NCBI GenBank assembly: GCA_026399755.1 | Contig: JAPLQI010000066.1 | Span: forward strand, 1-33,172 | Direction: 5' to 3' | DNA from: Pseudomonadota bacterium | Lineage (GTDB): Bacteria; Pseudomonadota; Gammaproteobacteria; Burkholderiales; Chitinibacteraceae | Length of the DNA stretch: 33,172 bases | Shown here: positions 2,582 through 19,985 of the stretch, one piece after another | Numbering within the stretch: the first letter of the stretch is position 1 | Layout: each line of letters opens with the position of its first letter | Made by a program: the position numbers and the translations under genes | Notes under the pieces: generated by a model | The model's database searches: none | Seen by the model: the letters and a program-made list of their open reading frames with translations, nothing else | What the model was told of the DNA's origin: nothing

Positions 2582-2657
2582 TGGTGGGTCGTGCGGGATT
2601 CGAACCTGCGACAAATGGATTAAAAGTCCACTGCTCTACCAACTGAGCTAACGACCC
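2582..2657 (-). tRNA. tRNA-Lys (anticodon UUU)
   Basis: On the minus strand this is a 76-nt cloverleaf with the acceptor GGGTCGT paired to ACGACCC, D arm TAGCTCAGTTGGTAGAGCA, anticodon loop CTTTTAA (anticodon TTT), T arm with GGTTCGAATCC, discriminator A and encoded CCA. It is identical in sequence to the gene at 4751-4826. Confidence 0.97.
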
Positions 2658-4648: not shown

Positions 4649-4724
4649 TGGTGGGCTGTGACAGATTCGAACTGTCGACCTACGGATTAAGAGTCCGCTG
4701 CTCTACCAGCTGAGCTAACAGCCC
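4649..4724 (-). tRNA. tRNA-Lys (anticodon CUU)
   Basis: Minus-strand 76-nt cloverleaf: acceptor GGGCTGT with ACAGCCC, anticodon loop CTCTTAA (anticodon CTT), T arm GTTCGAATC, encoded CCA. It follows tRNA-Lys(UUU) by 26 bp and is co-transcribed with it. Confidence 0.96.
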
Positions 4725-4750: not shown

Positions 4751-4826
4751 TGGTGGGTCGTGCGGGATTCGAACCTGCGACAAATGGATTAAAAGTCCAC
4801 TGCTCTACCAACTGAGCTAACGACCC
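4751..4826 (-). tRNA. tRNA-Lys (anticodon UUU), second copy
   Basis: Same 76-nt gene as 2582-2657, base for base, with anticodon TTT and encoded CCA. It is the first gene of a two-tRNA unit with 4649-4724. Confidence 0.97.
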
Positions 4827-7164: not shown

Positions 7165-7318
7165 TGACCTTAGTCAGAAGTCTGAAGTTAAGCGCTGTGT
7201 ATAGTTGTTTGTGAGGAAGCAAGGCAGACCACCCGCAGCAGTAAGTGGGCAAGATGCCTAATTAAGCAATATTAGTGAGTTGCTTTGAACAGGGAACGAT
7301 AAGTCGAGACTAAGGTCA
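7165..7318 (+). ncRNA. Structured leader RNA candidate upstream of xfp
   Basis: An 11-bp perfect stem joins 7165-7175 to 7308-7318 across 132 bases. Inside, GAAGCAA (7215-7221) pairs with TTGCTTT (7280-7286) to close a three-way junction with two hairpins: GGCA (7223-7226)/TGCC (7255-7258), capped by CCCGC/GTGGG, and CTAAT (7258-7262)/ATTAG (7271-7275). A further hairpin CACTTA/TAAGTG follows at 7321-7351. The structure ends about 80 bases before the phosphoketolase start. I could not match it to a known riboswitch. It could be a cis-regulator, a separate small RNA or chance; the long closing stem argues against chance. Confidence 0.5.
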
Positions 7319-7400
7319 GACACTTACGTTAAATGTTTAGATGTTTAAGTGACTGATAATAAATAGATTTCCCGATCAGCAAACCTAAATGAGGTGTTAC

Positions 7401-9800
7401 GTGACTCAACAGCTATCTCTTGCACAAATCGATAAAATGCACGCTTACTGGCGTGCGGCTAACTACCTTTCTGTTGGCCAAATTTATTTGTTAGATAACC
7501 CGCTTCTTACCGAACAACTGAAGTTTGCTCACATCAAGCCTCGTTTGTTGGGCCACTGGGGCACGACGCCCGGTCTGAATTTTATTTATGTTCACGCTAA
7601 TCGCATTATTAAACAACGCAAAAGCCCAATGATTTATATCACTGGTCCTGGCCACGGTGGCCCGGGTTTAGTGGCAAATACTTATCTGGAAGGCAGCTAC
7701 GAAGAGTTTTATCCACATATCGACCGCACTACCGCCGGTATGCAACGACTGTTTAAGCAATTCTCCTTCCCACGCGGTATTCCTTCGCACGTAGCACCGG
7801 AAACTCCGGGCTCGATGCACGAAGGCGGCGAGTTGGGTTATTCGCTTTCACACGCTTTTGGTGCTGCATTTGATAATCCAACTCAAACGGTGATTGCCGT
7901 TGTGGGTGATGGCGAAGCTGAAACAGGCCCGCTGGCGGCATCTTGGCACTCCAATAAATACCTGCACCCAGTGAACGATGGTTTTGTACTGCCGATCTTG
8001 CATTTGAATGGCTACAAGATTGCTAATCCAACCCTGCTGTCCCGTATTAGCCACGAAGAAATTACCAAGCTATTTGAAGGCTACGGTTACAAGCCGCACT
8101 TTGTTGAGCTGAAGACCGAAACATTCAATGAAAAGAATGAATCGTTTACCGAGATCCACCAAAAAATGGCTGCGACCATGGATCTGTGTATGGCCGAGCT
8201 GGATGCGATTCGTGCTAAAGCACAAGCTGAAATGGATGCTGGTCAGCCTATCGTTCGCCCACGCTACCCAATGATTGTGATGCGTACGCCTAAAGGCTGG
8301 ACTGGCCCGAAAGAAATTAAGGGTAAGAAAGTTGAAGATTACTGGCGCAGCCATCAAGTGCCGTTCTCTGATATCGATGAAGAAAACGTTCACAACTTAG
8401 AAAACTGGATGAAGAGCTATCGTCCAGAAGAGTTATTCAATACTGATGGCTCTTTCAAGGCAGAGCTGGCTGAATTAGCACCAGAAGGCGCATTGCGCAT
8501 GGGTTCTAACCCAGTGGTGCATGGTCAAGAGTCTAAAGATCTGCGCATGCCAGATTTCCGCAAATATGCGGTTACGTTTGACAAGCCAGGTACTGTAAAC
8601 GCCGAAGCAACTCGCGTCATGGGTAAATTCCTGCGCGATGTGATGGATGAAAACGAAGAGCAAAAGAATTTCCGCATCTTTGGGCCAGACGAAACTGCAT
8701 CTAACCGTTGGAACGATGTGTTCGATGTATCGGGCAAAACTTGGTTTGCTGATTACCTTGAAGCCGATAAAAACAACGATTACCTAGCGCAAGATGGCCG
8801 CGTAATGGAAATCTTGTCTGAGCATACTTGCCAAGGTTGGTTAGAAGCGTACAACTTGACCGGTCGTCATGGCTTCTTCAGCTGCTACGAAGCGTTTATC
8901 CATGTGATTGATTCGATGTTTAATCAGCACGCAAAATGGCTGAAAACAACACGCACCATCAACTGGCGCAAACCGTTGCCATCGCTGAACTACCTGCTGA
9001 CATCGCATGTATGGCGTCAGGATCACAACGGTTTTAGTCATCAAGATCCAGGTTTCCTTGATCATGTGATCAACAAGCGCGCCGAAGTGATCCGCGTTTA
9101 CCTGCCAGCAGATGCCAACACCCTGCTCAGCGTAACCGATCACGTATTACGCAGCCGTCACTATGTAAACGTCGTGGTAGCAGGTAAACAGCCAGCTCTG
9201 CAATACCTGACCATGGATCAAGCCATTACCCATTGCACTAAGGGTCTGGGGATTTGGGACTGGGCGTCTAATGATCAAGGCGGCGAGCCAGATGTAGTCA
9301 TGGCTTGCGCGGGTGAAGTACCGACCATGGAAGCACTGGCTGCAACTGATTTGCTGCGCCAACACTTCCCTGATCTGAAAATCCGCTTTGTAAACGTCTG
9401 CGATTTGATGACCTTGCAGCCAGAAGAAGAGCACTCACACGGCTTAACAGATCGTGAGTTTGATTCGCTGTTTACTACCGATAAGCCAGTGATGTTTGCC
9501 TTCCACGGCTACCCATGGCTGATTCACCGCCTGACTTACCGTCGCAATGGTCATAGCAATATCCATGCGCGTGGTTATATCGAAGAAGGCTCGACCTCTA
9601 CACCGTTTGATATGGTGGTAGTGAACAAGCTGGATCGCTACAACTTAGCCATCGACGTGATCGACCGTGTGCCAGCACTGCAAAAAATCGGTGCTCATGT
9701 TCGTCAAAAACTGTCGGATAAATTGGTAGAACACGGCCAATACATCGCAGAACACGGCGACGATATGCCAGAAGTTAAAAACTGGAAGTGGCCTTATTAA
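7401..9800 (+). CDS. xfp: Xylulose-5-phosphate/fructose-6-phosphate phosphoketolase
   Basis: A thiamine-diphosphate enzyme that cleaves xylulose 5-phosphate (and usually fructose 6-phosphate) with phosphate to acetyl phosphate and glyceraldehyde 3-phosphate (or erythrose 4-phosphate). I place the start at GTG 7401, preceded by GAGG at six bases, rather than the ATG at 7389 that overlaps this ribosome site; the product is then 799 residues, normal for the family. Visible signatures: [52 protein letters not shown], the ThDP/metal motif [36 protein letters not shown] and [17 protein letters not shown]. No acetate kinase gene is adjacent. It is monocistronic, ending at a terminator. Confidence 0.97.
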
Positions 9801-9829
9801 TTAGCGCTGTTTAGCTGATTAAAACCCAC

Positions 9830-9864
9830 AAAAACCGCTTTCCTGATGGGGGAGCGGTTTTTTT
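9830..9864 (+). terminator. Rho-independent terminator after xfp
   Basis: AAAAACCGCT pairs with AGCGGTTTTT and is followed by further T residues, 30 bases after the xfp stop. Confidence 0.9.
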
Positions 9865-9880
9865 ATGGGTGCGATCTTTT

Positions 9881-9931
9881 GTAGGGCGGGTGAAACCCGC
9901 GAGCCATGTCGAATAAATACGCGGGTGCACC
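9881..9931. repeat. GTAGGGCGGGTG palindromic repeat, right arm truncated
   Basis: The left arm GTAGGGCGGGTGAAACCCGC and the loop ending AAATACGCGGGTGCACC match the copy at 28239-28297, but the sequence diverges before the end of the right arm. Member of the repeat family also at 22247, 25471 and (mini-form) 23686. Confidence 0.8.
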
Positions 9932-9960
9932 TCATAAGAGCTAATCAAATTGAGAAGGAT

Positions 9961-10200
9961 CTTTTTAGTGCCTTCGGCACGTTGATTTTGGAGCGGTAGC
10001 CACCGCGGGGGCCTTCCTTTCTTGAACGGCCAAGAAACGAAGCCAAAGAAGGCCGCCCCGACCAGCACGAAAGCCCCTCACTGCGGATAATCGGCTCGGC
10101 GAAAAAGGCTGCTCGCTCGCTGCCTCGCTACCCCTTTTCCGAAATCCCGAGCCGCTTATTCCTCGTTTCGGCGTGCTTCAAGGGGGGATTTAAGCCCTAT
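9961..10200. repeat. Probable interspersed intergenic repeat with long imperfect hairpin
   Basis: A GC-rich, non-coding-looking block. CGGCTCGG (10092-10099) pairs with CCGAGCCG (10147-10154), with GAAAAAGG/CCTTTTCC inside, giving a long hairpin whose loop carries GCTCGCTCGCTGCCTCGC. From memory, blocks of this kind recur between genes in betaproteobacteria and give spurious short ORFs; a minus-strand reading frame at 9811-10068 (85 codons, with FFGFVSWPFKKGRPPR) is such a case, running through the xfp terminator and the preceding palindrome. The window holds only one copy, so repeat status is inferred. Confidence 0.5.
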
Positions 10201-10377
10201 ATTTAGATCGTGGATCCTTACGTTCCTTGTTGTTTGCTAATGCAAAGTCAAATTACTTAACGCACAAGGAGGGGCATCTGTTTTACGAGCCACAATTTCT
10301 ACCCGCGTTTTTTCATGTGCACATGCAACAAAGTCATCTTACTGCCTTACAATGAGGGGTAAACAAGGGAGAAGGCT

Positions 10378-11126
10378 GTGAGCGATTTTGAGCGTTTATC
10401 TGATCTGGTAGCTTTGGCTCGACGGGTGGCGGCTGAAGAAATTATGCCGCGCTTTCAGCAGGTGGCGTCCGCACGTAAACACGATGGCAGCTTGTTTACT
10501 GAGGCGGATATGGCATCGCAAGCGGCTTTGCAGCGTGAGCTCCCAAAAATTGTAAATTGCCCAGTGCTGGGCGAAGAAATGAGTGTGGCCGAGCAAAAAG
10601 CGCTATGGGCAGATCATCAAGATGGCTTGTGGATTGTCGATCCAATTGATGGCACAACCAATTTTGTACACGGCTTGCCGCATTTTTCGGTGTCGATTGC
10701 CTTATTTCGCCAAGGGCGGCCTGTGTTGGGCGTGGTGTATGTACCCGCCTTGGACGAATGCTTTTCGGCTGCCGCAGGCTACGGCGCATGGATGAATGGG
10801 CGCCCTTTACCTCTGCGGCAGGAAGTGCCCAAATCTTTATGTGAAGCCGTAGCGGCAGTGGAGCCTAAGTATTTAGGCGGTATGGCTCTTCGACCATAGA
10901 CTGGTGCTGGCTGGCGGCAGGGCGTACAGATTTAATGTTGCATGGCTCGCAAAAATTATGGGATTACGCTGCAGGCGTGCTGATTCTATTGGAATCTGGC
11001 GGGCAAATTGCCAGCATTCATCATGATAATTACTGGCAGGATAATATTTGGCAAAGATCGGTGGTGGCCGCGCGTTGCCCATCTTTATTTAAACCTTGGT
11101 TGGAATGGGTTAAAAATAATCGTTAA
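10378..11126 (+). pseudogene. Inositol-monophosphatase-family gene, broken by an internal deletion/frameshift
   Basis: The GTG start at 10378 follows GGGAGAAGG. The first frame gives 173 residues with normal family motifs (LGEEMS at 64-69, WIVDPIDGTTNFVHG at 85-99, whose Asp88 and Asp91 bind metal) and stops at 10899 after EPKYLGGMALRP. The family continues in another frame directly across this point: SSTIDWCWLAAGRTDLMLHG, then KLWDYAAGVLILLESGG, ending at 11126. Relatives normally have roughly 15-20 residues between these two parts, which are missing, so a short out-of-frame deletion is likely. The C-terminal metal aspartate (WDYAAG) is therefore not translated with the N-terminal half. The family covers inositol-1-phosphatase, CysQ-like and histidinol-phosphatase activities. 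A sequencing or assembly error is the alternative. Confidence 0.8.
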
Positions 11127-11729
11127 AACATGCTGCTCAATAGCTTTTGCTGCATAACTAATATTGTTGTGACTATAGCTTGGTGCTGAGCATGTGAATG
11201 CGCAACATTCTTTATGGGATTGTTTGTCCTCGTTTCACTCAGTGCCAAGCTACATCTATTCAAATTTAGTCGTATCCGACAGCACAATAGTCAAATGGCC
11301 ACGTTGATTTATAAAAAAATCAATAGCTTAGTCGGTTATTAAAGGATATTTCAAGCGCAATCGCCAAGGAATCCAGTCAATTAGCGAGATGAATAAGTAT
11401 TTTACATTGTGTTGCAAATGGCATATTTGTGCTTCAATGCGTTCGATTCAATTTTTGACGGTGTTGTACTAAAATAAAAATATGATCGTTATCATTGTTG
11501 TCTTCAGATCGCTTTGATTAAATTTAAAGGGCCACTATGGATAACTCATTGATTTTATTGTAATGGCCATTGTGTATAAAATAATTAATCAGAGCCCATT
11601 AAAGCTAATTGGGGAGGCGTAATACTTTATGCTCACCCAAAAATCACTGGAAAATGCAGATGCAGTGTCGGGCAATACTTATGCACGTTTTACAATTCAT
11701 GCCGTTTGTTTCTTTGTGGAGAAGAGCAA
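11127..11729. other. 603-bp AT-rich spacer before the LysR gene
   Basis: No convincing gene. The region is AT-rich and contains an imperfect Fur-like sequence at about 11481-11499 (minus strand AATGATAA followed by CGATCAT). A short in-frame leader reading would begin at 11629 but overlaps the LysR gene in another frame and looks random. Confidence 0.5.
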
Positions 11730-12659
11730 ATGCTCATGCTCTCTAGGCATTTACCAAGTACCAGAACTTTACAATGCTATCTTGCCGTTGCACAGGAGCT
11801 CAATTTTAGAAGTGCTGCAGAGCTACTGAATATGTCTCAGCCGCCCTTATCTCGCCAAATCCAAGGGCTGGAAGATTTATTAAGGGTGCAACTTATCCAG
11901 CGGGACACTCGTCAGGTAAGTTTAACTCCAGCTGGTGAGCAGTTCAAAAGAGAGGCGCACACATTTTTATTGGCGCTTGATCTTGCTGTTCAGGGGATGA
12001 AGGTCAATTTTCAGGATGAATCTGAAGGCCCTGACATTGTGCGTATGGGCTTAACCAGTGTTATTAATTATTCTTTGATCCCCAATCTGAATATGCTGAT
12101 CAGCAGTCCAGACTTTGTAAGGAGTCGCTTGGAGCGTGCCTATTCTAAGTATTTGGTAGAGCGTGTTCGTCGGGGAGAGTTAGATATTGCTATTGTTGGC
12201 GATATTATCGCCCCGGCCGATGACCTGAGTGTTGAGTTAGTGGGGTGCGATCTAACCATCGTTGCGCTTCCTGCTAACCATCCAGCCGCAGAAAAACAGG
12301 TGCTAGAACTCAGCGACCTAGGCGATATGCCTCTGTTTTGGTTTTCACGCACGGATAACCCTGCTTTTTATGATAAATGTGAGCGCGTATTTAAAAGTTA
12401 TCATTATTCGGCTCCTCGACGACTCCAAGCCAAAGATTTTGCTGTGTTATTGGCTGCTATCGCCGCTGGTGAAGGAATAACCCTCTGCTCGGCGTCTATG
12501 CAAGCCACTTCTCATGTTGGTGTCGTCTATCGTGCACTTTCCGCTAAACTTGCTCGCCAGCTGGCTATAGATTTGCACATTGTTTCGCGCACACAGGAAA
12601 CGCGGCATCAGGTCTTGGATAAAATACAAACCATTCGCTCTGTGCTGAGCAGCAGCTAG
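11730..12659 (+). CDS. LysR-family transcriptional regulator
   Basis: A 309-residue LysR-type regulator. The ATG at 11730 is chosen because GGAGAAGAG lies just upstream; a TTG eight codons earlier is less likely. Residues about 5-65 form the winged helix-turn-helix (LNFRSAAELLNMSQPPLSRQIQGLEDLL ... LTPAGEQF, in the usual LysR pattern), followed by a linker helix and a periplasmic-binding-like effector domain from about 90 (IVRMGLTSVINYSLIPNL, GELDIAIVGD). It is convergent with the aldo/keto reductase gene and is the only regulator beside the minus-strand accessory cluster, so it is the natural candidate to control it (inference). The effector is unknown. Confidence 0.9.
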   Translation: MLMLSRHLPSTRTLQCYLAVAQELNFRSAAELLNMSQPPLSRQIQGLEDLLRVQLIQRDTRQVSLTPAGEQFKREAHTFLLALDLAVQGMKVNFQDESEGPDIVRMGLTSVINYSLIPNLNMLISSPDFVRSRLERAYSKYLVERVRRGELDIAIVGDIIAPADDLSVELVGCDLTIVALPANHPAAEKQVLELSDLGDMPLFWFSRTDNPAFYDKCERVFKSYHYSAPRRLQAKDFAVLLAAIAAGEGITLCSASMQATSHVGVVYRALSAKLARQLAIDLHIVSRTQETRHQVLDKIQTIRSVLSSS

Positions 12660-12664
12660 TTTAT

Positions 12665-12684
12665 AGCGCAGGCTAGCCTGCGCT
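12665..12684 (+). terminator. Hairpin after the LysR gene
   Basis: AGCGCAGG pairs with CCTGCGCT around CTAG, five bases after the stop, followed by TATTCTT. A likely terminator, perhaps serving both convergent genes, though the T-run is weak. Confidence 0.55.
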
Positions 12685-12754
12685 TATTCTTACTGCTATT
12701 ACTGAAAGATAGCCCTTGGAAAAAATGATGGTGCTAACTTTCAGTTTTTTCGGC

Positions 12755-13798
12755 TCAAGCATTAATTCCTTTCATTCCTTCGCTACTATAACGGGAGCCA
12801 CGTACTTGAGAAGCAGGCATTGCATGGTCCAGCTTCTTCAAATCTTCTGTAGTTAATGTTAAGGCAAGTGCTCCTAAATTTTCTTGTAGATAAGTTGAGC
12901 GGCGCGTGCCAGGGATCGGGACGATATGGGGGCCCTGAGCAAGCAGCCAAGCCAGTGCAACTTGGCTGGGGGCTACGGAATAATTTGTTGCAACTGCAAG
13001 TACCGTTTCTAGTAAAACAAGGTTATGGTTTAAATTTGTTTGTTCAAACCTTGGGTTGTTGCATCTAAAGTCTCCAGCGGCAAAGCTATCTGTGTTGCGT
13101 ATACGGCCACTTAAAAAACCGCGCCCCAGTGGTGAGTAGGCGACAAAGCCGATGCCGAGTTCTTGAGTTAGAGGCAAAATGTCTTGTTCAACCTCTCTGC
13201 TCCACAGGGAGTATTCGCTTTGTAATACAGATACAGGATGCACTTGGTGAGCTCGTCGCAGAGTTTTAGCTGAGACCTCACACAAACCAATATGCTCAAT
13301 TTTGCCTTCTTTAACTAAATCGGCAAGGCATCCCATGCTCTCATCTATGTCGATAGATGTGTCAAGCCGATGGATATAATAAACGTCGATACGATCAACG
13401 CCCAGACGCTTTAAAGAAGCTTCGCAGCAACGGCGAATATATTCTGGCCTGTTATTGATACGCCGAGCTGATGATGTATCGGCAGGCCATTCAATACCGC
13501 ATTTCGTTGCGATTTTGAGCTGCCCTGTCTTGTAAATATCTTGGCGTGAGCGAAGCAAATCACCGATCAGCAACTCATTATGCCCTTGGCCATAAATATC
13601 AGCTGTATCAATGAAAGTGACTCCACGATCAAGAACCTCATTGAGTAGTTTTTTCGAGTCCAGATCATTTGATGGGCCATAAAACTCGCTCATTCCCATT
13701 GCGCCGTAGCCTAAGCTTGATACGATTAAGCCCTCACTCAGTGTACGTTCTGGCAAGATTTTCCGGCTGGTTTGTTTGTTGCTTGTTGCTAATGTCAT
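12755..13798 (-). CDS. Aldo/keto reductase
   Basis: A 347-residue NADPH-type aldo/keto reductase, probably reducing an aldehyde or ketone in the cytoplasm. The ATG at 13798 has GAGA upstream; a TTG ten codons earlier is an alternative. The catalytic tetrad is intact: Asp64 and Tyr69 (DTADIYG), Lys99 (IATKCG) and His143 (YYIHRLD). LGYGAMGMSEFYG near the N-terminus and VAYSPLGRGFLSG fit the AKR13-like branch (perakine-reductase/YakC type). It is the last gene of the minus-strand cluster and is separated from the decarboxylase-like gene by a strong inverted repeat, so it may be transcribed on its own. The substrate is not deducible; within the AfsA cluster it could act as the reductase (inference). 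Confidence 0.92.
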   Translation of the reverse strand: MTLATSNKQTSRKILPERTLSEGLIVSSLGYGAMGMSEFYGPSNDLDSKKLLNEVLDRGVTFIDTADIYGQGHNELLIGDLLRSRQDIYKTGQLKIATKCGIEWPADTSSARRINNRPEYIRRCCEASLKRLGVDRIDVYYIHRLDTSIDIDESMGCLADLVKEGKIEHIGLCEVSAKTLRRAHQVHPVSVLQSEYSLWSREVEQDILPLTQELGIGFVAYSPLGRGFLSGRIRNTDSFAAGDFRCNNPRFEQTNLNHNLVLLETVLAVATNYSVAPSQVALAWLLAQGPHIVPIPGTRRSTYLQENLGALALTLTTEDLKKLDHAMPASQVRGSRYSSEGMKGINA

Positions 13799-13913
13799 AA
13801 ATAGTCTCTTTTTCTGTGGATGCGTCAAAAAATGAGCGAAGCGGATTCTGTCTTTAAATTAATGTTTGCTGCTGGTTTTCATCCCATTTAGAAGCGATGA
13901 CTTGGTCTGCATT

Positions 13914-13954
13914 ATTTGCAAGACCACCATACTGCTGTCCGTGGTCTTGCAAAT
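13914..13954. repeat. 14-bp perfect inverted repeat between two cluster genes
   Basis: ATTTGCAAGACCAC (13914-13927) pairs with GTGGTCTTGCAAAT (13941-13954), loop 13 bases. It lies 116 bp upstream of the aldo/keto reductase start and 20 bp after the decarboxylase-like gene. No T-run follows on the minus strand, so a regulator site or RNA hairpin is as likely as a terminator. Confidence 0.6.
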
Positions 13955-13974
13955 TTGCTTTCGTATTCTGCTTC

Positions 13975-14376
13975 CTAACTTTTTTTGGAATGAATAGAGG
14001 CAATCGCAGTTCGATAGGCGGTGAGTCCATTCATCGTTGCTGGCAGTCCCGCGTAAATAGCCATTTGGATGACGATTTCCAGTAATTCCTCTTGGCTAAC
14101 CCCAACATTGAGTGCTCCACGCATATGGAAGGCCAGTTGTTCTGGTGCATTACCCATCGCTGTAAGAGCCGCAACAGTCAGCATTTCTCGGGTTTTAAGA
14201 TCCAAGCCTGGCCGGCCCAGTACATCGGCAAAGGCATAATCGGTAACCAGACGAGCTAAGCCAGGGTCAAGTTCTGATAGTTTATCGCTGACACGAGAGG
14301 CTGTATTGGGCTCCAAAGCATCCATCAGGCGCCGCCCCAAGAGGGTCTTTTCACTCATAATGACTGGTGAGTTCAT
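13975..14376 (-). CDS. Carboxymuconolactone-decarboxylase-family protein
   Basis: A 133-residue all-helical protein of the CMD/AhpD-like family. The core LKTREMLTVAALTAMG and QLAFHMRGALNVGVSQEELLE followed by IQMAIYAGLPATMNGL is the classical gamma-CMD pattern; the AhpD-type CxxC pair is absent, so it is not a thiol peroxidase partner. Members range from true 4-carboxymuconolactone decarboxylase to many uncharacterised proteins near oxidoreductases. Its ATG overlaps the stop of the MFS gene (ATGA), so it is translationally coupled to it. No other protocatechuate-pathway gene is present, which argues against a role in aromatic breakdown. Confidence 0.88.
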   Translation of the reverse strand: MNSPVIMSEKTLLGRRLMDALEPNTASRVSDKLSELDPGLARLVTDYAFADVLGRPGLDLKTREMLTVAALTAMGNAPEQLAFHMRGALNVGVSQEELLEIVIQMAIYAGLPATMNGLTAYRTAIASIHSKKS

Positions 14377-15605
14377 GCCGATACGCTCGTTACAGCTGGC
14401 TGAGTAATCAGTAAAGGCCGGCCTAGATTGGCCACTACGAGGATGGATACTGCACCACCCAAGCCTGCTACCATCATTACGGCAGAAAATCCGCTATAGC
14501 TAAGCACCCAAGCACCCAACATTGCGCCGACACCGATAGCCGCATTGAAGATCGCCACATAGACAGCTGATGCAGGCATCGCAGCACTACCCGCTGTACG
14601 TAGAATCCATGTTTGAAACCCGACAAAGGTCACTGAGATGGCAGCTCCCCATATTATGAGCATCGCTGTTATTCCTGTTGTGCCAAGTGCAGCACCCCAA
14701 TAGCCCAAAGCAATAAGAGCAAAGCTGAGTAACATTAGCGCCAGTACTAGAAACGGCTTCAGATACCGGTCAATAAAGACCCCCGTTAAGATATTAGCCA
14801 GCAGTCCCGCAGCGCCAAAGCCAAACAATAAAGCAATCACAAGCGCTGATTGGATGCCTGGCATTTCGCGTAAAAAGGGCTCGATGAAAGTAAAAGCTGC
14901 AAAGTGCCCGGTTACCGCAAAAGCTGTGGCGATATAAATGCCCCATAAGTCCGCTCTACGCAGTACGGCGAAGAGAGCCGCCGCTGCTCCTTTACTACCA
15001 TCATGCTGGATGCGAGGCAGCACCGGCACCATCAGCAACGCGCTGATTAGGCTTAAAGCACCTATGGCAGAGAAAGCCATGCGCCAGCTGCTTTCTTGGC
15101 CGATAAGGGTGGATAGTGGAACGCCAAATACACTGGCGGCCGAGACCCCGCCAAAGACGATAGAGGTTGCCAGCCCAGCGTGGCGTGCCGGAGCAATTTG
15201 TGCTGCTGAAGCCGCAATGACAGCCCAAAATATACCGTGGGCGATTGCACCAAAGGCACGAGCGGCTAACAGCAGCTCAAAACTACTAGATAACATCGAG
15301 GCTATATTTGATAAACCAAGGCATAACATCAGCCCGATCAAGAGTTGCTTACGTGGTAATTGACCTAACATAAAGGCAGAGAGCAGGGCGCTAATGGCTC
15401 CAATCCAAGCGTAGAGAGTAACCGTTAAGCCAATGCTCGCTTCACTACGCCCAAGATCATGTGCAATGGCAGATAACAAACCAATAGGTGCTAACTCGGT
15501 AGTGACAATTGTAAAAGCACCAATGCCCAGTAGGATAATGGCCAGCCAAGTTCGCCAGCTTGGCAGCTCTGGCGTTTGATTTGAGTGTGATAGATTCTTT
15601 TTCAT
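14373..15605 (-). CDS. MFS transporter, drug/sugar-efflux (SotB/AraJ-like) type
   Basis: A 410-residue inner-membrane protein with twelve predicted helices, of the major facilitator superfamily DHA1 branch. Features include TTELAPIGLLSAIAHDLG in the first helix region, AARAFGAIAHGIFWAVIAA in helix 4 (like SotB/YdeA) and IVFGGVSAASVFGVPLST in helix 5. Such carriers export small molecules using the proton gradient. It sits between the phosphatase and decarboxylase-like genes in a tightly coupled operon, as expected for export of the operon's product or of a toxic substrate. The stop overlaps the next gene by four bases. Confidence 0.9.
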   Translation of the reverse strand: MKKNLSHSNQTPELPSWRTWLAIILLGIGAFTIVTTELAPIGLLSAIAHDLGRSEASIGLTVTLYAWIGAISALLSAFMLGQLPRKQLLIGLMLCLGLSNIASMLSSSFELLLAARAFGAIAHGIFWAVIAASAAQIAPARHAGLATSIVFGGVSAASVFGVPLSTLIGQESSWRMAFSAIGALSLISALLMVPVLPRIQHDGSKGAAAALFAVLRRADLWGIYIATAFAVTGHFAAFTFIEPFLREMPGIQSALVIALLFGFGAAGLLANILTGVFIDRYLKPFLVLALMLLSFALIALGYWGAALGTTGITAMLIIWGAAISVTFVGFQTWILRTAGSAAMPASAVYVAIFNAAIGVGAMLGAWVLSYSGFSAVMMVAGLGGAVSILVVANLGRPLLITQPAVTSVSA

Positions 15606-15639
15606 ATGGATCTCGGGGGGAGGATAAAAATAAGCGTAA

Positions 15640-16320
15640 TTAAGTAGCTAAGTGGCTCCAGCCACGTGCAGCCGCTAGTGCTGTTAGTTCACTTGAGCCC
15701 CCAATGGCGACTGCTACACCTACTGCTTCTAGCATTGCTACATCGGAAATATCATCTCCGTAGGCATAGCAGTTTTCTGCAAGGGCTCTATGTTTGTAGA
15801 GAAAAGACTTGAGGGCATCTGCTTTCCCTTTTCCTATGGTTTGAGGATGACCGATGCTCCCTGTTAACCGGCCTTGCTGATCTACTAATAATTGAGTGCA
15901 AAGGCAATGTTTAACGTTTAACTGATCAGCCAGTGGTTGCAATAAAGGAAGCATTGAGCCAGAAACCAATACGGGTACTACACCCGCAGCTTGGTGAGCC
16001 TTTAGTTGTTCCACTACAGTATTGATATAGGGAGGCTGCTGCTTATTAAAACGCTGCTCAAACCAATTCAGTCCTGCCTCTTGTAAGTCCTGCAGCAAAG
16101 CGTTTTTGAAAAAACTGTAATACAAATGGTTTAATTGCTCACGGGATTGGCCATTGGAACGTGCACAGCTAAAGGAATAATCGAAGTGCTCTTTCAGGCT
16201 AGGCATGCCTTGTCTCTCGCTCCAAAAAGAGAAAAAGTCGAACATGCTTTTAATCGAGATGAGTGTTTCATCAACATCAAAAAAAGCGTACTGGGTGGCA
16301 GACTTTAGTGCCGAGCTCAC
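15640..16320 (-). CDS. HAD-IB family phosphatase
   Basis: A 226-residue haloacid-dehalogenase superfamily hydrolase of subfamily IB (SerB-like), acting on small phosphate esters in the cytoplasm. Motif I is DVDET with nucleophile Asp15 and acid/base Asp17, motif II is VLVSGS, motif III lysine is in GKGKADAL, and motif IV is YGDDISD. A helical cap (residues about 20-100) fits subclass I. The start overlaps the stop of the tautomerase gene (ATGA), showing coupling. In the setting of an AfsA-type enzyme a phosphatase is meaningful, because the butenolide intermediate of A-factor synthesis carries a phosphate that must be removed; that assignment is inference. Confidence 0.9.
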   Translation of the reverse strand: MSSALKSATQYAFFDVDETLISIKSMFDFFSFWSERQGMPSLKEHFDYSFSCARSNGQSREQLNHLYYSFFKNALLQDLQEAGLNWFEQRFNKQQPPYINTVVEQLKAHQAAGVVPVLVSGSMLPLLQPLADQLNVKHCLCTQLLVDQQGRLTGSIGHPQTIGKGKADALKSFLYKHRALAENCYAYGDDISDVAMLEAVGVAVAIGGSSELTALAAARGWSHLAT

Positions 16321-16547
16321 AGGGCCTCCTCATAGACAAGTCGCCGACTTTTTTCACGAAACTCCGGAGCCGACCCAAGCACGCCTGCGTCGCCCCAGCG
16401 CGAGGGCTGTACTTCACTTATAAAAACTGAAATCTTATCGAGTGGTGCGGCTGTGGTTTCATGGACAATGCGAGTAATTCCTTCGATCAGGGCACGAGCC
16501 TGCTCATCGTCCTTTATTGGCCAAGTTGTAATTTGAATAACGGGCAT
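16317..16547 (-). CDS. 4-oxalocrotonate-tautomerase-family protein
   Basis: A 76-residue member of the tautomerase superfamily, whose enzymes use the N-terminal proline as general base for keto-enol isomerisation. The sequence starts MPVIQITTWP, so removal of Met exposes Pro1. The helix GITRIVHETTAAPLDKISVFISEV follows the 4-OT pattern. AGGAG lies six bases before the ATG. It is the first gene of a four-gene coupled operon (tautomerase, HAD, MFS, CMD-like) and follows a triple inverted motif at 16638-16682. The substrate is unknown. Confidence 0.9.
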   Translation of the reverse strand: MPVIQITTWPIKDDEQARALIEGITRIVHETTAAPLDKISVFISEVQPSRWGDAGVLGSAPEFREKSRRLVYEEAL

Positions 16548-16637
16548 GGAAATCTCCTAAATGTTTACTGCAAAGGGCCTCCCCTCTGTAGTGATTGGTT
16601 TACTTGATGAGTTGCTTTGCAATGGTATAAATCCAAA

Positions 16638-16682
16638 TATGCTTGCTTTGAAAATATTTTATTTCCGAAGCATAAATATGCT
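16638..16682 (-). promoter_or_regulatory. Candidate operator with three TATGCT half-sites
   Basis: TATGCTT (16638-16644), AAGCATA (16668-16674) and TATGCT (16677-16682) form two overlapping inverted pairs, one with 23 bases and one with 2 bases between arms. They lie 90-135 bp before the tautomerase start, the usual distance for LysR-type recognition and activation sites. Confidence 0.5.
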
Positions 16683-16707
16683 GAGCCAAGCGGCTAACCA
16701 GATTGAT

Positions 16708-17535
16708 TTAAGTGTGGGTCAGTAGTGAGGAAAAACTTGGTGACTGAAGTTTTAATTGCGCATGTATATCGCCACCTAAGCCATACCAGCCTATGGCTCC
16801 GCCATAACTCATTGAAGAACTCATATAAAGAACGACAATATTAATAATGCGGTTTGAGTTTTCCAGTGTCGGATCTGGAAACGGGTTAGGTAGCCGTGCC
16901 CAGTAACTTGCATTTCCATGCTTATCAGTCACAAATATGTTGGGGACGCCCAAGGGGCCAGGGCGAGTTGGACTGATTGCATCTAGATCGTGCTCACGCA
17001 GGCTCATCACGGTATACACACTGTCAGGAACAAGATGCTTACAATCGAGCTCAAACAAGGCAGATCGGCCATCTTCTGCCACTTGGATATGCAATGTTCC
17101 ACTTGCTTTAAGCCACTGTCCTAATGTGATTGGGGGGAGGTTTCTCCGTCCGTGTTCTTCTAGAAAATCAGGGACAGGGGCCTTATGCAGTGGAAAACTA
17201 GGCCGCTGTTCGTCTAGAGCCTGAGGCCGCTGTTCTGGGGAAAATAACATCCGATAATTATTAACTGGTAGTGGTAGCGGTAACGTGTAGAGCTCAAGAT
17301 TAGCCATCTCAGCCGGATGGTCTAGATCAATCCAGTGCAATATATCGTGCACCCCAAGCTCGCCAAAGGCCGGAGCCTTCGTGTCAGCGGAAACAATCGC
17401 AGCAGCCCACGGCAAAGCCCCTCCTTCTTGTGGGATTCGCCCAATCACAATAAAATTTCCATCTTTATTCATAATCTCGCTGGGCGGATATAATGGCCCT
17501 TGAGTTGTGACACTTAATTCAAAAATGGTGCTCAT
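16708..17535 (-). CDS. Unknown protein coupled to the AfsA-like gene
   Basis: A 275-residue protein I do not recognise. It has no signal peptide or membrane segment. Its composition is rich in proline, leucine and aromatic residues with alternating polar/hydrophobic stretches, suggesting a beta-rich fold. The segment ASGTLHIQVAEDGRSALFEL followed by LVPDSVYTVMSL and GNASYWARLPNPFP looks like a beta-sandwich. Its ATG overlaps the AfsA-like stop by four bases, so the two are made together and may act together. It could be an enzyme accessory or binding protein; no function is assigned. Confidence 0.75.
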   Translation of the reverse strand: MSTIFELSVTTQGPLYPPSEIMNKDGNFIVIGRIPQEGGALPWAAAIVSADTKAPAFGELGVHDILHWIDLDHPAEMANLELYTLPLPLPVNNYRMLFSPEQRPQALDEQRPSFPLHKAPVPDFLEEHGRRNLPPITLGQWLKASGTLHIQVAEDGRSALFELDCKHLVPDSVYTVMSLREHDLDAISPTRPGPLGVPNIFVTDKHGNASYWARLPNPFPDPTLENSNRIINIVVLYMSSSMSYGGAIGWYGLGGDIHAQLKLQSPSFSSLLTHT

Positions 17536-18341
17536 TGCGTGCTCACCAACTCTCTTTTAGGCTTATTATTTATGTGAGCAGATGGTGTGAGTGCGGATTT
17601 TTGTAGTAATGCCAGCATGGAAATTGTTATTTCATGAGCAAGCTCAGCTTCTTTTTCTGCAATATTGCTTGCTGGATAGACAGTAAATGCCACTTCTGCA
17701 GTAGCACACACGATGTTATTTTGTATAGCGGACATGGCTACTTTATAGCGAGCTCGCCGCTCATTACTATCCGACTCTAAAATACGGTAGTTCACATTTG
17801 CAGGCAGCGGAAATAAGAAGCCTTGAAATGCCGTATTCATTTCGTTAATAACGAAATATGTTTTTCCATTGTTAAATGGAAAAAAAGCTTCGGTCACGAC
17901 TAGGAATGACTGTCGAAAAGCTTCCACTAATATCATGCCTTGCACATGCTGGCCGCTTTGATGATCTCCCATGAGTTCGCAACGCTCATCGATATTTAGA
18001 GACATTTGAAATTCGTTATCACCAAGGCGTCGTGGCACCCCTAGGAGAGTATTGAAAGGTAATTTTTTATGACTCATGTCGCTAGGTGCACGATCTAATA
18101 CTCGGCGCAAATCTGTCGTTTCTAAAAAGGGTATAACTTCGAAACTATTTTCATATTTACGCAGAATGCAATGAATCTCATCCTCTTGCACCCCTTGACC
18201 TAAAATCAAGACTGCATTGTTGTTCATTAAGCCAACAGGTAAATTTGTTAATGATTTTAATTGATTTAAAGTTAGTACATCTTTTCCTTCGGCAAATTCA
18301 TTAAATTTGTCACCGACAACAAAATAGCATTTCTTTTCCAA
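17532..18341 (-). CDS. AfsA-like hotdog-domain protein (A-factor biosynthesis family)
   Basis: A 269-residue cytoplasmic protein. The start is TTG at 18341, with AGGGG five bases upstream; no ATG fits. The AfsA family condenses a beta-ketoacyl-ACP with dihydroxyacetone phosphate to start gamma-butyrolactone (A-factor) or related furan synthesis. Family signs: SHKKLPFNTLLG at residues 90-101 resembles the VHK...EVLLT motif, and MGDHQSGQHVQGMILVEAFR at 124-143 resembles the second motif ending in L-x-E-x-x-RQ; a second hotdog-like half continues through NYRILESDSNERRARYKVAM. The first 85 or so residues are extra and unassigned. It is AT-richer than core genes of the window. Family membership is likely; the reaction here is inference. 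Confidence 0.75.
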   Translation of the reverse strand: MEKKCYFVVGDKFNEFAEGKDVLTLNQLKSLTNLPVGLMNNNAVLILGQGVQEDEIHCILRKYENSFEVIPFLETTDLRRVLDRAPSDMSHKKLPFNTLLGVPRRLGDNEFQMSLNIDERCELMGDHQSGQHVQGMILVEAFRQSFLVVTEAFFPFNNGKTYFVINEMNTAFQGFLFPLPANVNYRILESDSNERRARYKVAMSAIQNNIVCATAEVAFTVYPASNIAEKEAELAHEITISMLALLQKSALTPSAHINNKPKRELVSTQ

Positions 18342-18443
18342 AGTAGCCCCTGCGCTTAATGATTAATACACAAATAATTATTTTATGAATATATATTTTT
18401 TGTTAAATATAATTTATTAAAATATAGAACTTTTATAGGTGTA

Positions 18444-18480
18444 ACTTTGGTCGCGATAAAGAGCCGGTCGCGACTAAAGT
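18444..18480. promoter_or_regulatory. Long inverted repeat upstream of the AfsA-like gene
   Basis: ACTTTGGTCGCGA (18444-18456) and TCGCGACTAAAGT (18468-18480) pair over 13 positions with one mismatch (a G-U wobble in plus-strand RNA), loop 11 bases. Each arm holds the palindrome TCGCGA. It lies 103-139 bp before the TTG start and about 70 bp after the preceding gene; without a T-run on the minus strand, an operator is the better guess. Confidence 0.6.
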
Positions 18481-18552
18481 CGTTATTTATTCAATTTGGT
18501 ATACTTCTAATTCTGTGAAATATATATGGGAAAGGTAGTAAGAAATTATAGA

Positions 18553-19164
18553 TCAAGCAGCTAACAAGCTAGCTCGTATATAGATACGGGTGAATAATCC
18601 ATCAGTACCTCCTGTGATGTATTGATCTCCTGCTTGTTGCACAATGTTGCGATAGCGATCACTTTCAAAAACAGCTCGATAGTCATTTAGTTCCCCTGAA
18701 AATCCAGAAATAAACATCACGCCTGGTTGGCCGCTAATAAGAGAGTGATAAGCGAGGAAAACTTCAACTGGGGCACTTTCTTGCACTACTTGGAAAATTG
18801 TTTCAGTACGCCATTTACGATAGGCTTGTGTTTTTGTTGGAGGTACTTCTACATGGCGAAGCTGCACAAAGTCAGTATCAGGAAGTGCATGTATGCAAGG
18901 TTTTGGAGCTTCGACGTAAGTAATTAGCTCACGTTTTACATCACCAACCATATGAATAGAAAAACGTTGCAAGTCCGCGTTTAACTCTTCTGTTCTTGTT
19001 GCAAAATCTGCTATCCCATCGTATGAGCGAAGTTGAAGTAGTTCTTGTTCTTCGAGATCAAATAGATACCGAGTACGAGCATCATCACTAAGGCTAGATG
19101 CAATTAATCGGCTAGCTTGCGATACGAGTGGAAAGCGAGAGATAAGAATAAGTTCAGCTGCCAT
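18553..19164 (-). CDS. Unknown protein heading the AfsA-like cluster
   Basis: A 203-residue soluble protein I do not recognise. AAAGG lies eight bases before the ATG. There is no signal peptide or membrane helix. The second half (VQLRHVEVPPTKTQAYRKWR, then EVFLAYHSLISGQPGVMFISGF, then YRAVFESDRYRNIV) has the strand-helix-strand rhythm of dimeric alpha/beta-barrel proteins such as the NIPSNAP or ABM type, but that is only an impression. It is separated from the AfsA-like gene by 211 bp that hold a large inverted repeat, so it may be regulated apart from it. Confidence 0.75.
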   Translation of the reverse strand: MAAELILISRFPLVSQASRLIASSLSDDARTRYLFDLEEQELLQLRSYDGIADFATRTEELNADLQRFSIHMVGDVKRELITYVEAPKPCIHALPDTDFVQLRHVEVPPTKTQAYRKWRTETIFQVVQESAPVEVFLAYHSLISGQPGVMFISGFSGELNDYRAVFESDRYRNIVQQAGDQYITGGTDGLFTRIYIRASLLAA

Positions 19165-19618
19165 CTTTATAACCTTTAATGTATGTGATGATATTTTTTG
19201 TGTTGTCGCATGAGAAATGTAAGCTTAAAGAAGAAATCTACTTTATTGAACTACTTTAAATGCAATACCTTTTAGGTATCGACTTGTCGGTAATTGAGGG
19301 CCTTGTAAGTAACCTGTACTAGGCAAAGTGGGTCTTCGTACTTGTTATAAGTTGATGCGGAAAAATTGCCGGAAAGAGCCTGTTGCTGAGGGAGAATGGC
19401 AGAAGGCCGTGATTAAGTCGTGCGTGTAGGATTGCAGAGTATTTGAGAAAAAGCAGCTGATTAAATATATCTATCTGCATCTAAAAGACTGTTGCAATAG
19501 CTAGGTTGTGAAAAAAAATATTAGCTCTAAAAATAAAGCTGAGTTCTATTACGGCCTAATTGTTCAGTTGCCATTAAAAACGGGCAGCTAATGAGCCGTT
19601 GCATTTTTAGGCATTAAT

Positions 19619-19649
19619 AACTCAGCCCTTCAAAGTCTGAGTTTTTTTT
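19619..19649 (+). terminator. Rho-independent terminator without an obvious gene
   Basis: AACTCAG pairs with CTGAGTT around an 11-base loop and runs into eight T. No plus-strand gene ends before it. Confidence 0.65.
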
Positions 19650-19836
19650 GATTTCTCTCAAACTAAACACTAAATTCGGTTGCTTACGGAGTTATTCTTA
19701 ATCAAAGCTAAAATAGCGTTGATTTTTCTTTAAGTAATGGCGGAAATGATGATTTTTCTCATTGCAAAATAAGAGAACCTTCGGTTTTTATAAGGAGTCG
19801 AGTGGTTTTCTTACATGTAATGTATTGCTAAACATT

Positions 19837-19852
19837 CGTTTGCTTTTAAACG
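19837..19852. promoter_or_regulatory. Inverted repeat in the nupC upstream region
   Basis: CGTTT and AAACG are separated by six bases, about 135 bp before the nupC ATG. The half-site resembles those of LacI-family (CytR-like) regulators, but evidence is thin. Confidence 0.25.
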
Positions 19853-19985
19853 CACTAAACATAAGTGAAACACCTTATTTCTTCAAATATTGCCAAGCCT
19901 ATATTGCAGGCTGAGTGAAAACCCGTAAAAAACAAGCCGCAGCGCACGCTAAATAAAGCGGTATGTGAAATTTCAGGAGACGAAG

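Follow-up and report, generated by a model that had tools for sequence, protein, structure and literature searches.

An acquired AfsA cassette in a member of the Chitinibacteraceae resembles the Ruegeria pomeroyi killing cluster and probably makes a small antimicrobial

Gene content of the locus

The window analyzed here is the whole 33,172-nucleotide stretch of contig JAPLQI010000066.1 (assembly GCA_026399755.1) from a Pseudomonadota bacterium of the family Chitinibacteraceae. It carries a cassette of eight co-directional reading frames on the minus strand (12755-19164), built around a gene for an AfsA-family enzyme and faced by a convergent LysR-family regulator gene on the plus strand (Table 1). 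The original prediction, made from the sequence alone, had described this layout and a tight coupling of genes, and all three 4-base gene overlaps are present (17532/17535, 16317/16320 and 14373/14376). Domains were called by Pfam and NCBIfam profile searches with a reporting limit of E 0.1. The AfsA-type hotdog protein scores about twice the PF03756 cut-off and keeps the conserved residues of the family. Pfam also supports the predicted identities of the aldo/keto reductase (AKR), the carboxymuconolactone-decarboxylase-like protein (CMD), the efflux-type exporter (MFS), the HAD-IB phosphatase, the tautomerase and the LysR regulator. The two proteins initially left unrecognized, here named UNK (16708-17535) and ABM (18553-19164), gave no Pfam or NCBIfam match. 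The window's genome has a single PF03756 gene, whereas none of 14 control genomes has one.

The NCBIfam matches add some detail. The CMD protein reaches 76.8 bits on the PcaC model TIGR02425, under the cut-off of 155.7, and the exporter scores 262 bits on PRK03545 and 154 bits on cmx_cmrA, each under its cut-off. The phosphatase additionally has a Pfam HAD match of 100.7 bits. Across relatives, AfsA residues H127, H132, E140, R143 and Q144 occur in 83/83 aligned proteins (all five are present in the window) and D126 in 82/83. Phosphatase residues D15, D17, T19, S120, D189 and D193 are kept in 79/80 aligned proteins and K166 in 80/80, and the tautomerase Pro2 in 33/34. From family knowledge we take these residues to be catalytic. 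The reductase residues D74, Y79, K109 and H153, presumably the catalytic tetrad, are found in 41/41 aligned proteins. Judged by the residues kept, the enzyme machinery of the cassette appears intact.

Table 1. Features of the locus, with positions in the window. R. pomeroyi values are percent identity to the Ruegeria pomeroyi counterpart.
Feature	Position	Strand	Support
Acquired island, LysR and all eight structural genes	11123..19643		empty site in congeners
LysR-family regulator	11706..12659	+	PF00126 73.9 bits, PF03466 77.2 bits; convergent with operon
Aldo/keto reductase (AKR)	12755..13828	-	PF00248 249 bits; R. pomeroyi 50%
Perfect 14-base inverted repeat between CMD and AKR genes	13914..13954		sequence
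Carboxymuconolactone-decarboxylase-like protein (CMD)	13975..14376	-	PF02627 77.5 bits; R. pomeroyi 48%
MFS efflux-type exporter	14373..15605	-	PF07690 120 bits; R. pomeroyi 49%
HAD-IB phosphatase	15640..16320	-	TIGR01490 128.9 bits, cut-off 98.3; R. pomeroyi 44%
4-Oxalocrotonate-tautomerase-like protein with Pro2	16317..16547	-	PF01361 38.3 bits; R. pomeroyi 54%
UNK, conserved beta-sandwich protein	16708..17535	-	R. pomeroyi 56%; SPOA0341 counterpart by gene order
AfsA-family hotdog enzyme	17532..18341	-	PF03756 49.8 bits, cut-off 24; R. pomeroyi 45%
Hairpin between ABM and AfsA genes	18443..18481	-	-15.2 kcal/mol, shuffle mean -8.3
ABM, tandem dimeric alpha/beta-barrel, monooxygenase-like fold	18553..19164	-	R. 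pomeroyi 50%

Acquisition of the island

The window was compared with the matching stretch in all eight other congener genomes examined. The matches to the left flank (ending at 11,122-11,130) and to the right flank (starting at 19,531-19,861) lie only 120-472 bp apart in 8/8 congeners. A block of about 8.5 kb is thus absent from the same site in every congener, which identifies it as an insertion, or acquired island. In congener L108 an additional piece of 177 bp matches near 11,614-11,789, so the left edge can be placed only approximately. With the LysR gene counted in, the unit extends from about 11.1 to 19.6 kb, which corrects the predicted extent of 12755-19164. The empty sites of the congeners offer a natural comparison.

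The counterpart in Ruegeria pomeroyi

All eight structural genes have matches on the megaplasmid of R. pomeroyi DSS-3 (NC_006569.1) at 44-56% identity, and the five-gene block ABM-AfsA-UNK-tautomerase-HAD has the same order in both. UNK was equated with SPOA0341 and ABM with SPOA0343 by gene order around AfsA (SPOA0342), since the record prints newer tags. The AfsA gene of the window is accordingly flanked by the counterparts of both SPOA0341 and SPOA0343. The tautomerase, HAD-IB, AKR, CMD and MFS genes share the locus (44-54%), and a dedicated regulator gene adjoins them inside the island. The clusters differ in arrangement. The AKR-CMD-MFS genes of R. pomeroyi are set apart as a divergently oriented unit, with their order reversed and a LysR gene in between, whereas all eight window genes lie on one strand. 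The convergent LysR of the window is unlike theirs, with no match in the R. pomeroyi locus at E 1e-4, and the further regulator genes of R. pomeroyi have no counterpart in the window. Regulator type was not treated as defining because it varies among relatives. By homology and gene content, the window cluster can be assigned to the R. pomeroyi SPOA0342 kind (SPOA0339-0344 plus AKR-CMD-MFS), which it resembles in the eight genes, in keeping AKR, CMD and MFS together and in having been acquired.

The R. pomeroyi cluster is the subject of the only genetic study of such a cassette that our literature searches found. Sharpe and colleagues screened 10,000 transposon mutants for lost diffusible killing, and six of the seven non-killing mutants isolated map to the AfsA cluster (PMC7426152, here and below in the parts consulted). 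AfsA (SPOA0342) mutants lost killing and kept immunity, whereas mutants in SPOA0341 and the regulator SPOA0344 lost killing and were also sensitive to the parent (PMC7426152). Only 21 of 4,252 genes were altered by the afsA mutation, 10 of them in the cluster, and full transcription of 10 cluster genes needs afsA (PMC7426152). A proteome study cited in the same paper places SPOA0339-0343 at 1-6% of the proteome. The authors describe three predicted regulators, judged the cluster to be horizontally acquired and had themselves identified 35 organisms with AfsA relatives, both flanking genes being present in 29 (PMC7426152). Ruegeria sp. EL01 and Shimia marina, which are among these 35 organisms (PMC7426152), correspond to our loci L029 and L033. 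The killing product was not identified in the parts of PMC7426152 consulted, and no later paper naming it stood out in a search of mainly non-subscription literature, among the entries listed (15 of 192 and 40 of 3,523).

Distribution of the cassette

Relatives were sought with an alignment of AfsA and two same-family proteins against one genome per species (84,980 species). The best 80 of 99 stretches encoding an AfsA relative, plus four loci from a family search, gave 84 loci. Neighbors were counted by tblastn within 9 kb of AfsA, and a locus with UNK nearby was called a cassette locus, as are 41 of the 84. A UNK match at L055 was dropped from this count (32% identity, other strand, 5.9 kb from AfsA). 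At two loci (L009 and L010) tblastn gave no match to AfsA; they stand outside both groups, leaving 82. Some loci are duplicates or close kin (L012 and L079 are one non-cassette locus entered twice; L020/L021, L068/L070 and others are same-species or near-identical pairs), so the counts do not represent independent events.

The cassette genes cluster beyond chance. Within the 41 cassette loci we found ABM in 41, HAD in 40, CMD in 34, the tautomerase in 32, AKR in 26 and the window-type MFS in 24, with missing genes partly due to short contigs. Counting substitutes, a reductase (AKR or SDR) is present in 37/41 and an exporter (two MFS types or EamA) in 38/41. The 41 other AfsA loci have HAD in 38, a FAD monooxygenase in 17, AKR in 14, ABM, CMD and MFS in 3 each, and the tautomerase in 1. 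The HAD-IB phosphatase pairs with AfsA in 78/82 loci overall. Neither of the two results that would have refuted the original prediction was obtained: the AfsA match is significant, and phosphatase, reductase and exporter genes recur near AfsA in relatives. The regulator is more variable, with two LysR types and TetR among cassette relatives; a match to the window LysR occurs in 18/41 cassette loci, 17 of them at 30% identity or more. The closest relative among the loci seen is Aquabacterium sp. A7-Y (L014), with 62-73% identity over seven genes and no CMD or LysR match in the stretch compared.

A separate search with UNK alone was made because the 84 loci were found through AfsA. Two of 72,556 plasmid records match, the R. 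pomeroyi megaplasmid and the Streptomyces plasmid pSSP121038. A class sample of 369 genomes gave one full-length match besides the window (L131), the others being partial, and in an order sample of 399 genomes full-length UNK occurs only in the window itself. All three full-length matches outside the window adjoin AfsA and HAD. There is no tautomerase, CMD or MFS match on pSSP121038, and no ABM, tautomerase or CMD match at L131. The cassette is rare and scattered. On the AfsA tree, cassette loci do not form one clade; the label requires 8 changes, at least 6 of them forced by starred branches, against a shuffled mean of 27.7. Incomplete loci (L053, L084, L086 and the truncated L065) explain part of this pattern, and long branches leave some placements unsure. 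At L065 (Photorhabdus khanii), the AfsA and ABM frames are apparently truncated and UNK is not matched; this cassette thus seems to be decaying.

UNK is 49-59% identical to 33 aligned relatives, and the window protein is 51-57% identical to those in four aligned actinobacterial rows. A profile search found no PDB relative at E 1, and the predicted structure model has a pLDDT of 83.6. A protein so well conserved from the window to actinobacteria, yet without a Pfam family, is worth solving.

The likely acyl donor

A dedicated maker of beta-ketoacyl thioesters is present in 22/41 cassette loci, either a thiolase (16) or a beta-ketoacyl-ACP synthase III (KAS III; 6). The thiolase occurs in 16/16 Enterobacterales/Vibrio cassettes (the Ewingella query and 15 others at 63-79% identity to it), and KAS III in 6/7 actinobacterial cassettes, at 56% identity or more to the query copy. 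The count of suppliers does not include a KAS III match at L082 (42%, other strand, 6.2 kb off). For the Ewingella thiolase the top-scoring model is one of acetyl-CoA acetyltransferase, whose cut-off it does not reach; it does exceed that of a broader acyltransferase model. Both KAS III proteins tested exceed the general KAS III and FabH cut-offs, and pSSP121038 carries an annotated KAS III together with an acyl carrier protein (ACP). Thiolase and KAS III typically make four-carbon beta-keto thioesters. Two unrelated enzymes in the same slot therefore indicate an acetoacetyl thioester, and we lean slightly towards such a C4 donor. This suggests that AfsA joins an acetoacetyl thioester to dihydroxyacetone phosphate, giving a butenolide core of about C7. 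The relatives' own beta-keto thioester makers are a new point, absent from the parts of PMC7426152 consulted.

Related chemistry has been described elsewhere. The AfsA domain of gladiostatin releases a 3-ketobutyryl group on addition of dihydroxyacetone phosphate, and a C8 mimic was converted to a butenolide (PMC7756379, parts consulted). Methylenomycin synthesis is proposed to start from acetoacetyl-ACP and a pentulose (PMC12593393, parts consulted).

Comparison with other AfsA and butenolide systems

Streptomyces gamma-butyrolactone systems (AfsA, ScbA/ScbR) share with the window a PF03756 condensing enzyme and the proposed phosphatase and reductase steps; UNK and ABM are extra conserved proteins in the window. 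The window AfsA scores only 25 bits on the ScbA/BarX equivalog NF041195 (cut-off 200). An ArpA/ScbR-type receptor is missing, as predicted: Pfam recognizes none in the cassette, and the best match to NF041196 in the genome reaches 64.9 bits against a cut-off of 150. Such sub-cut-off ScbR-like matches also occur in 13/14 control genomes. Streptomyces-type signaling with an ArpA/ScbR receptor was rejected for lack of a receptor over the cut-off in the genome. TetR proteins beside four actinobacterial cassettes were likewise rejected as receptors (32-47 bits on the ScbR model, cut-off 150). No butenolide-phosphate reductase domain was recognized by Pfam in the cassette, for which no dedicated model was run.

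The methylenomycin furan (MmfLHP) and the gladiostatin phosphorylated butenolide synthase (PBS) resemble the window in an AfsA enzyme and in phosphatases within the gene cluster. MmfP is a phosphatase and MmfH a flavin-dependent type of reductase; Pfam recognizes no domain of a flavin enzyme in any cassette protein. The gladiostatin cluster carries phosphatases (PMC7756379, parts consulted). Its AfsA domain lies at the C-terminus of a polyketide synthase (PKS), whereas the window AfsA is a free-standing protein of 269 aa. The methylenomycin system (MmyD/MmyA/MmyC) is alike in its proposed logic, with a butenolide synthase joining an acetoacetyl thioester and a sugar-type ketone towards a small antibiotic (PMC12593393). 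MmyD, however, is AvrD-like and thought to use a pentulose (PMC12593393, parts consulted), whereas only PF03756 was reported for the window AfsA, with no AvrD family match. A 'butyrolactone' cluster is also named in Xenorhabdus, in passages that give no gene content (PMC10676414).

Proposed function and alternatives

We consider it fairly probable that the island is a self-sufficient cassette for interference, of the R. pomeroyi SPOA0342 kind, which uses the AfsA-acetoacetyl-dihydroxyacetone phosphate route to make an exported antimicrobial. The analysis demonstrates which genes are present, that they are conserved and co-occur, that the island was acquired and that it is homologous to a killing cluster; the chemical steps, donor length, target, regulation and role of UNK are inferred, as follows. 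AfsA, as the proposed phosphorylated butenolide synthase, would condense a beta-ketoacyl thioester, likeliest acetoacetyl-CoA or -ACP, with dihydroxyacetone phosphate. The HAD-IB phosphatase is proposed to take the phosphate off the resulting butenolide. The AKR, for which we propose reduction of the acyl keto group, might then act with the tautomerase, CMD-like and ABM-fold proteins to reduce, isomerize and possibly oxidize a lactone or furan of about C7. The MFS pump would export the product, which would kill or inhibit neighbors, and LysR may sense the product or an intermediate and switch the operon on. UNK might finish the product or shield the producer from it. Most likely, the genes serve to make and export a small antimicrobial of the butenolide or furan type and to regulate their own expression, and do not produce a signal of the Streptomyces kind. 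Less likely than not, the cassettes could define a class of approximately C7 butenolide/furan antibiotics made from an acetoacetyl thioester and dihydroxyacetone phosphate in two phyla, in which UNK, produced in large amounts alongside the enzymes, would confer resistance or hold the product.

Several points weigh against this reading. The window cassette has neither thiolase nor KAS III, and neither was shown in 19/41 cassette loci, some of which lie on short contigs. The donor could be longer because thiolases (55% and 43% identical) are encoded elsewhere in the window's genome, and the single cassette thiolase tested passes only the broad model. The tautomerase and CMD steps may be dispensable, since these genes are absent from 9/41 and 7/41 cassette loci, respectively. 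Regulation may differ from R. pomeroyi because the LysR is unmatched there and three regulators are predicted. The R. pomeroyi genetics rely on transposons, the polar effects of which blur single-gene roles. The product in the window is a predicted one.

The original prediction favored a signal, and Streptomyces AfsA products are indeed signals. A true pheromone would act on genes elsewhere, with killing in R. pomeroyi as an output of regulated genes; the need of cluster transcription for afsA is consistent with this, and the authors left signaling open (PMC7426152, parts consulted). We nevertheless regard such a signal as unlikely. The set of genes responding to afsA is small and nearly half internal to the cluster, the window's genome lacks an ScbR-type receptor over the cut-off, and the R. 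pomeroyi relative is needed for both killing and immunity. Regulator types are also swapped between relatives while the enzymes stay constant, which is unexpected for a signal-receptor pair. An antimicrobial, perhaps inducing its own genes, probably fits better than a free-standing signal. The prediction of a butenolide or furan maker and exporter is therefore partly supported, with the AfsA domain, the phosphatase pairing and the co-traveling reductase and exporter in its favor, but a Streptomyces-style signal is not.

Streptomyces AfsA usually uses a longer beta-ketoacyl-ACP. If the window enzyme drew such a substrate from fatty acid synthesis, the product would be A-factor-like or a longer-chain 2-alkyl-furan. 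The C8 mimic accepted by the gladiostatin domain (PMC7756379) and the lack of a dedicated acyl supplier in the window are compatible with this route, but the suppliers of 22/41 relatives, of two unrelated types and both typically four-carbon makers, render it about as improbable as a signal. Far less probable still is a catabolic or detoxifying island, in which CMD, tautomerase, AKR and MFS would degrade foreign lactones or aromatics or pump them out. Aromatic catabolism does involve CMD, tautomerase and certain LysR families, as the best NCBIfam models also hint. To our knowledge, however, AfsA and its phosphatase make rather than break lactones in the cases studied. The R. pomeroyi counterpart is, moreover, required for killing (PMC7426152, parts consulted). 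In the antimicrobial interpretation, a cassette found sporadically in proteobacteria and actinobacteria would hold most of the recipe for a small diffusible antimicrobial, together with a pump, a regulator and, probably, an immunity function. Chemists gain a direct target from the donor and core mass predicted here.

Other features of the window and related loci

Two sequence elements are possible candidates for transcription control, the inverted repeat at 13914-13954 and the hairpin at 18443-18481. The hairpin (z -2.75; 1/200 shuffles equally good) might be an operator or attenuator.

Other AfsA loci show different arrangements. The same-genus locus L010 (G034, 9562-14057) has a tandem-hotdog AfsA with a HAD hydrolase, a cytochrome P450 and an MFS gene. 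The same-family locus L009 (G002, 7215-12688) encodes a PKS ending in ACP and AfsA domains, followed by HAD and FAD monooxygenase genes, an arrangement that resembles gladiostatin chain release. A second recurrent grouping combines AfsA, HAD and the FAD monooxygenase, often with AKR (for example L011, L012, L049, L050, L067 and L093). Other frames, some exceeding 1,200 aa, contain matches to the C-terminal half of UNK; one at L013 (9030-9980) looks secreted by eye and adjoins a carbonic-anhydrase-like protein. Three tRNA-Lys genes lie on the minus strand of the window (2582-2657, 4649-4724 and 4751-4826), and segments of this region have repeated matches within congeners.

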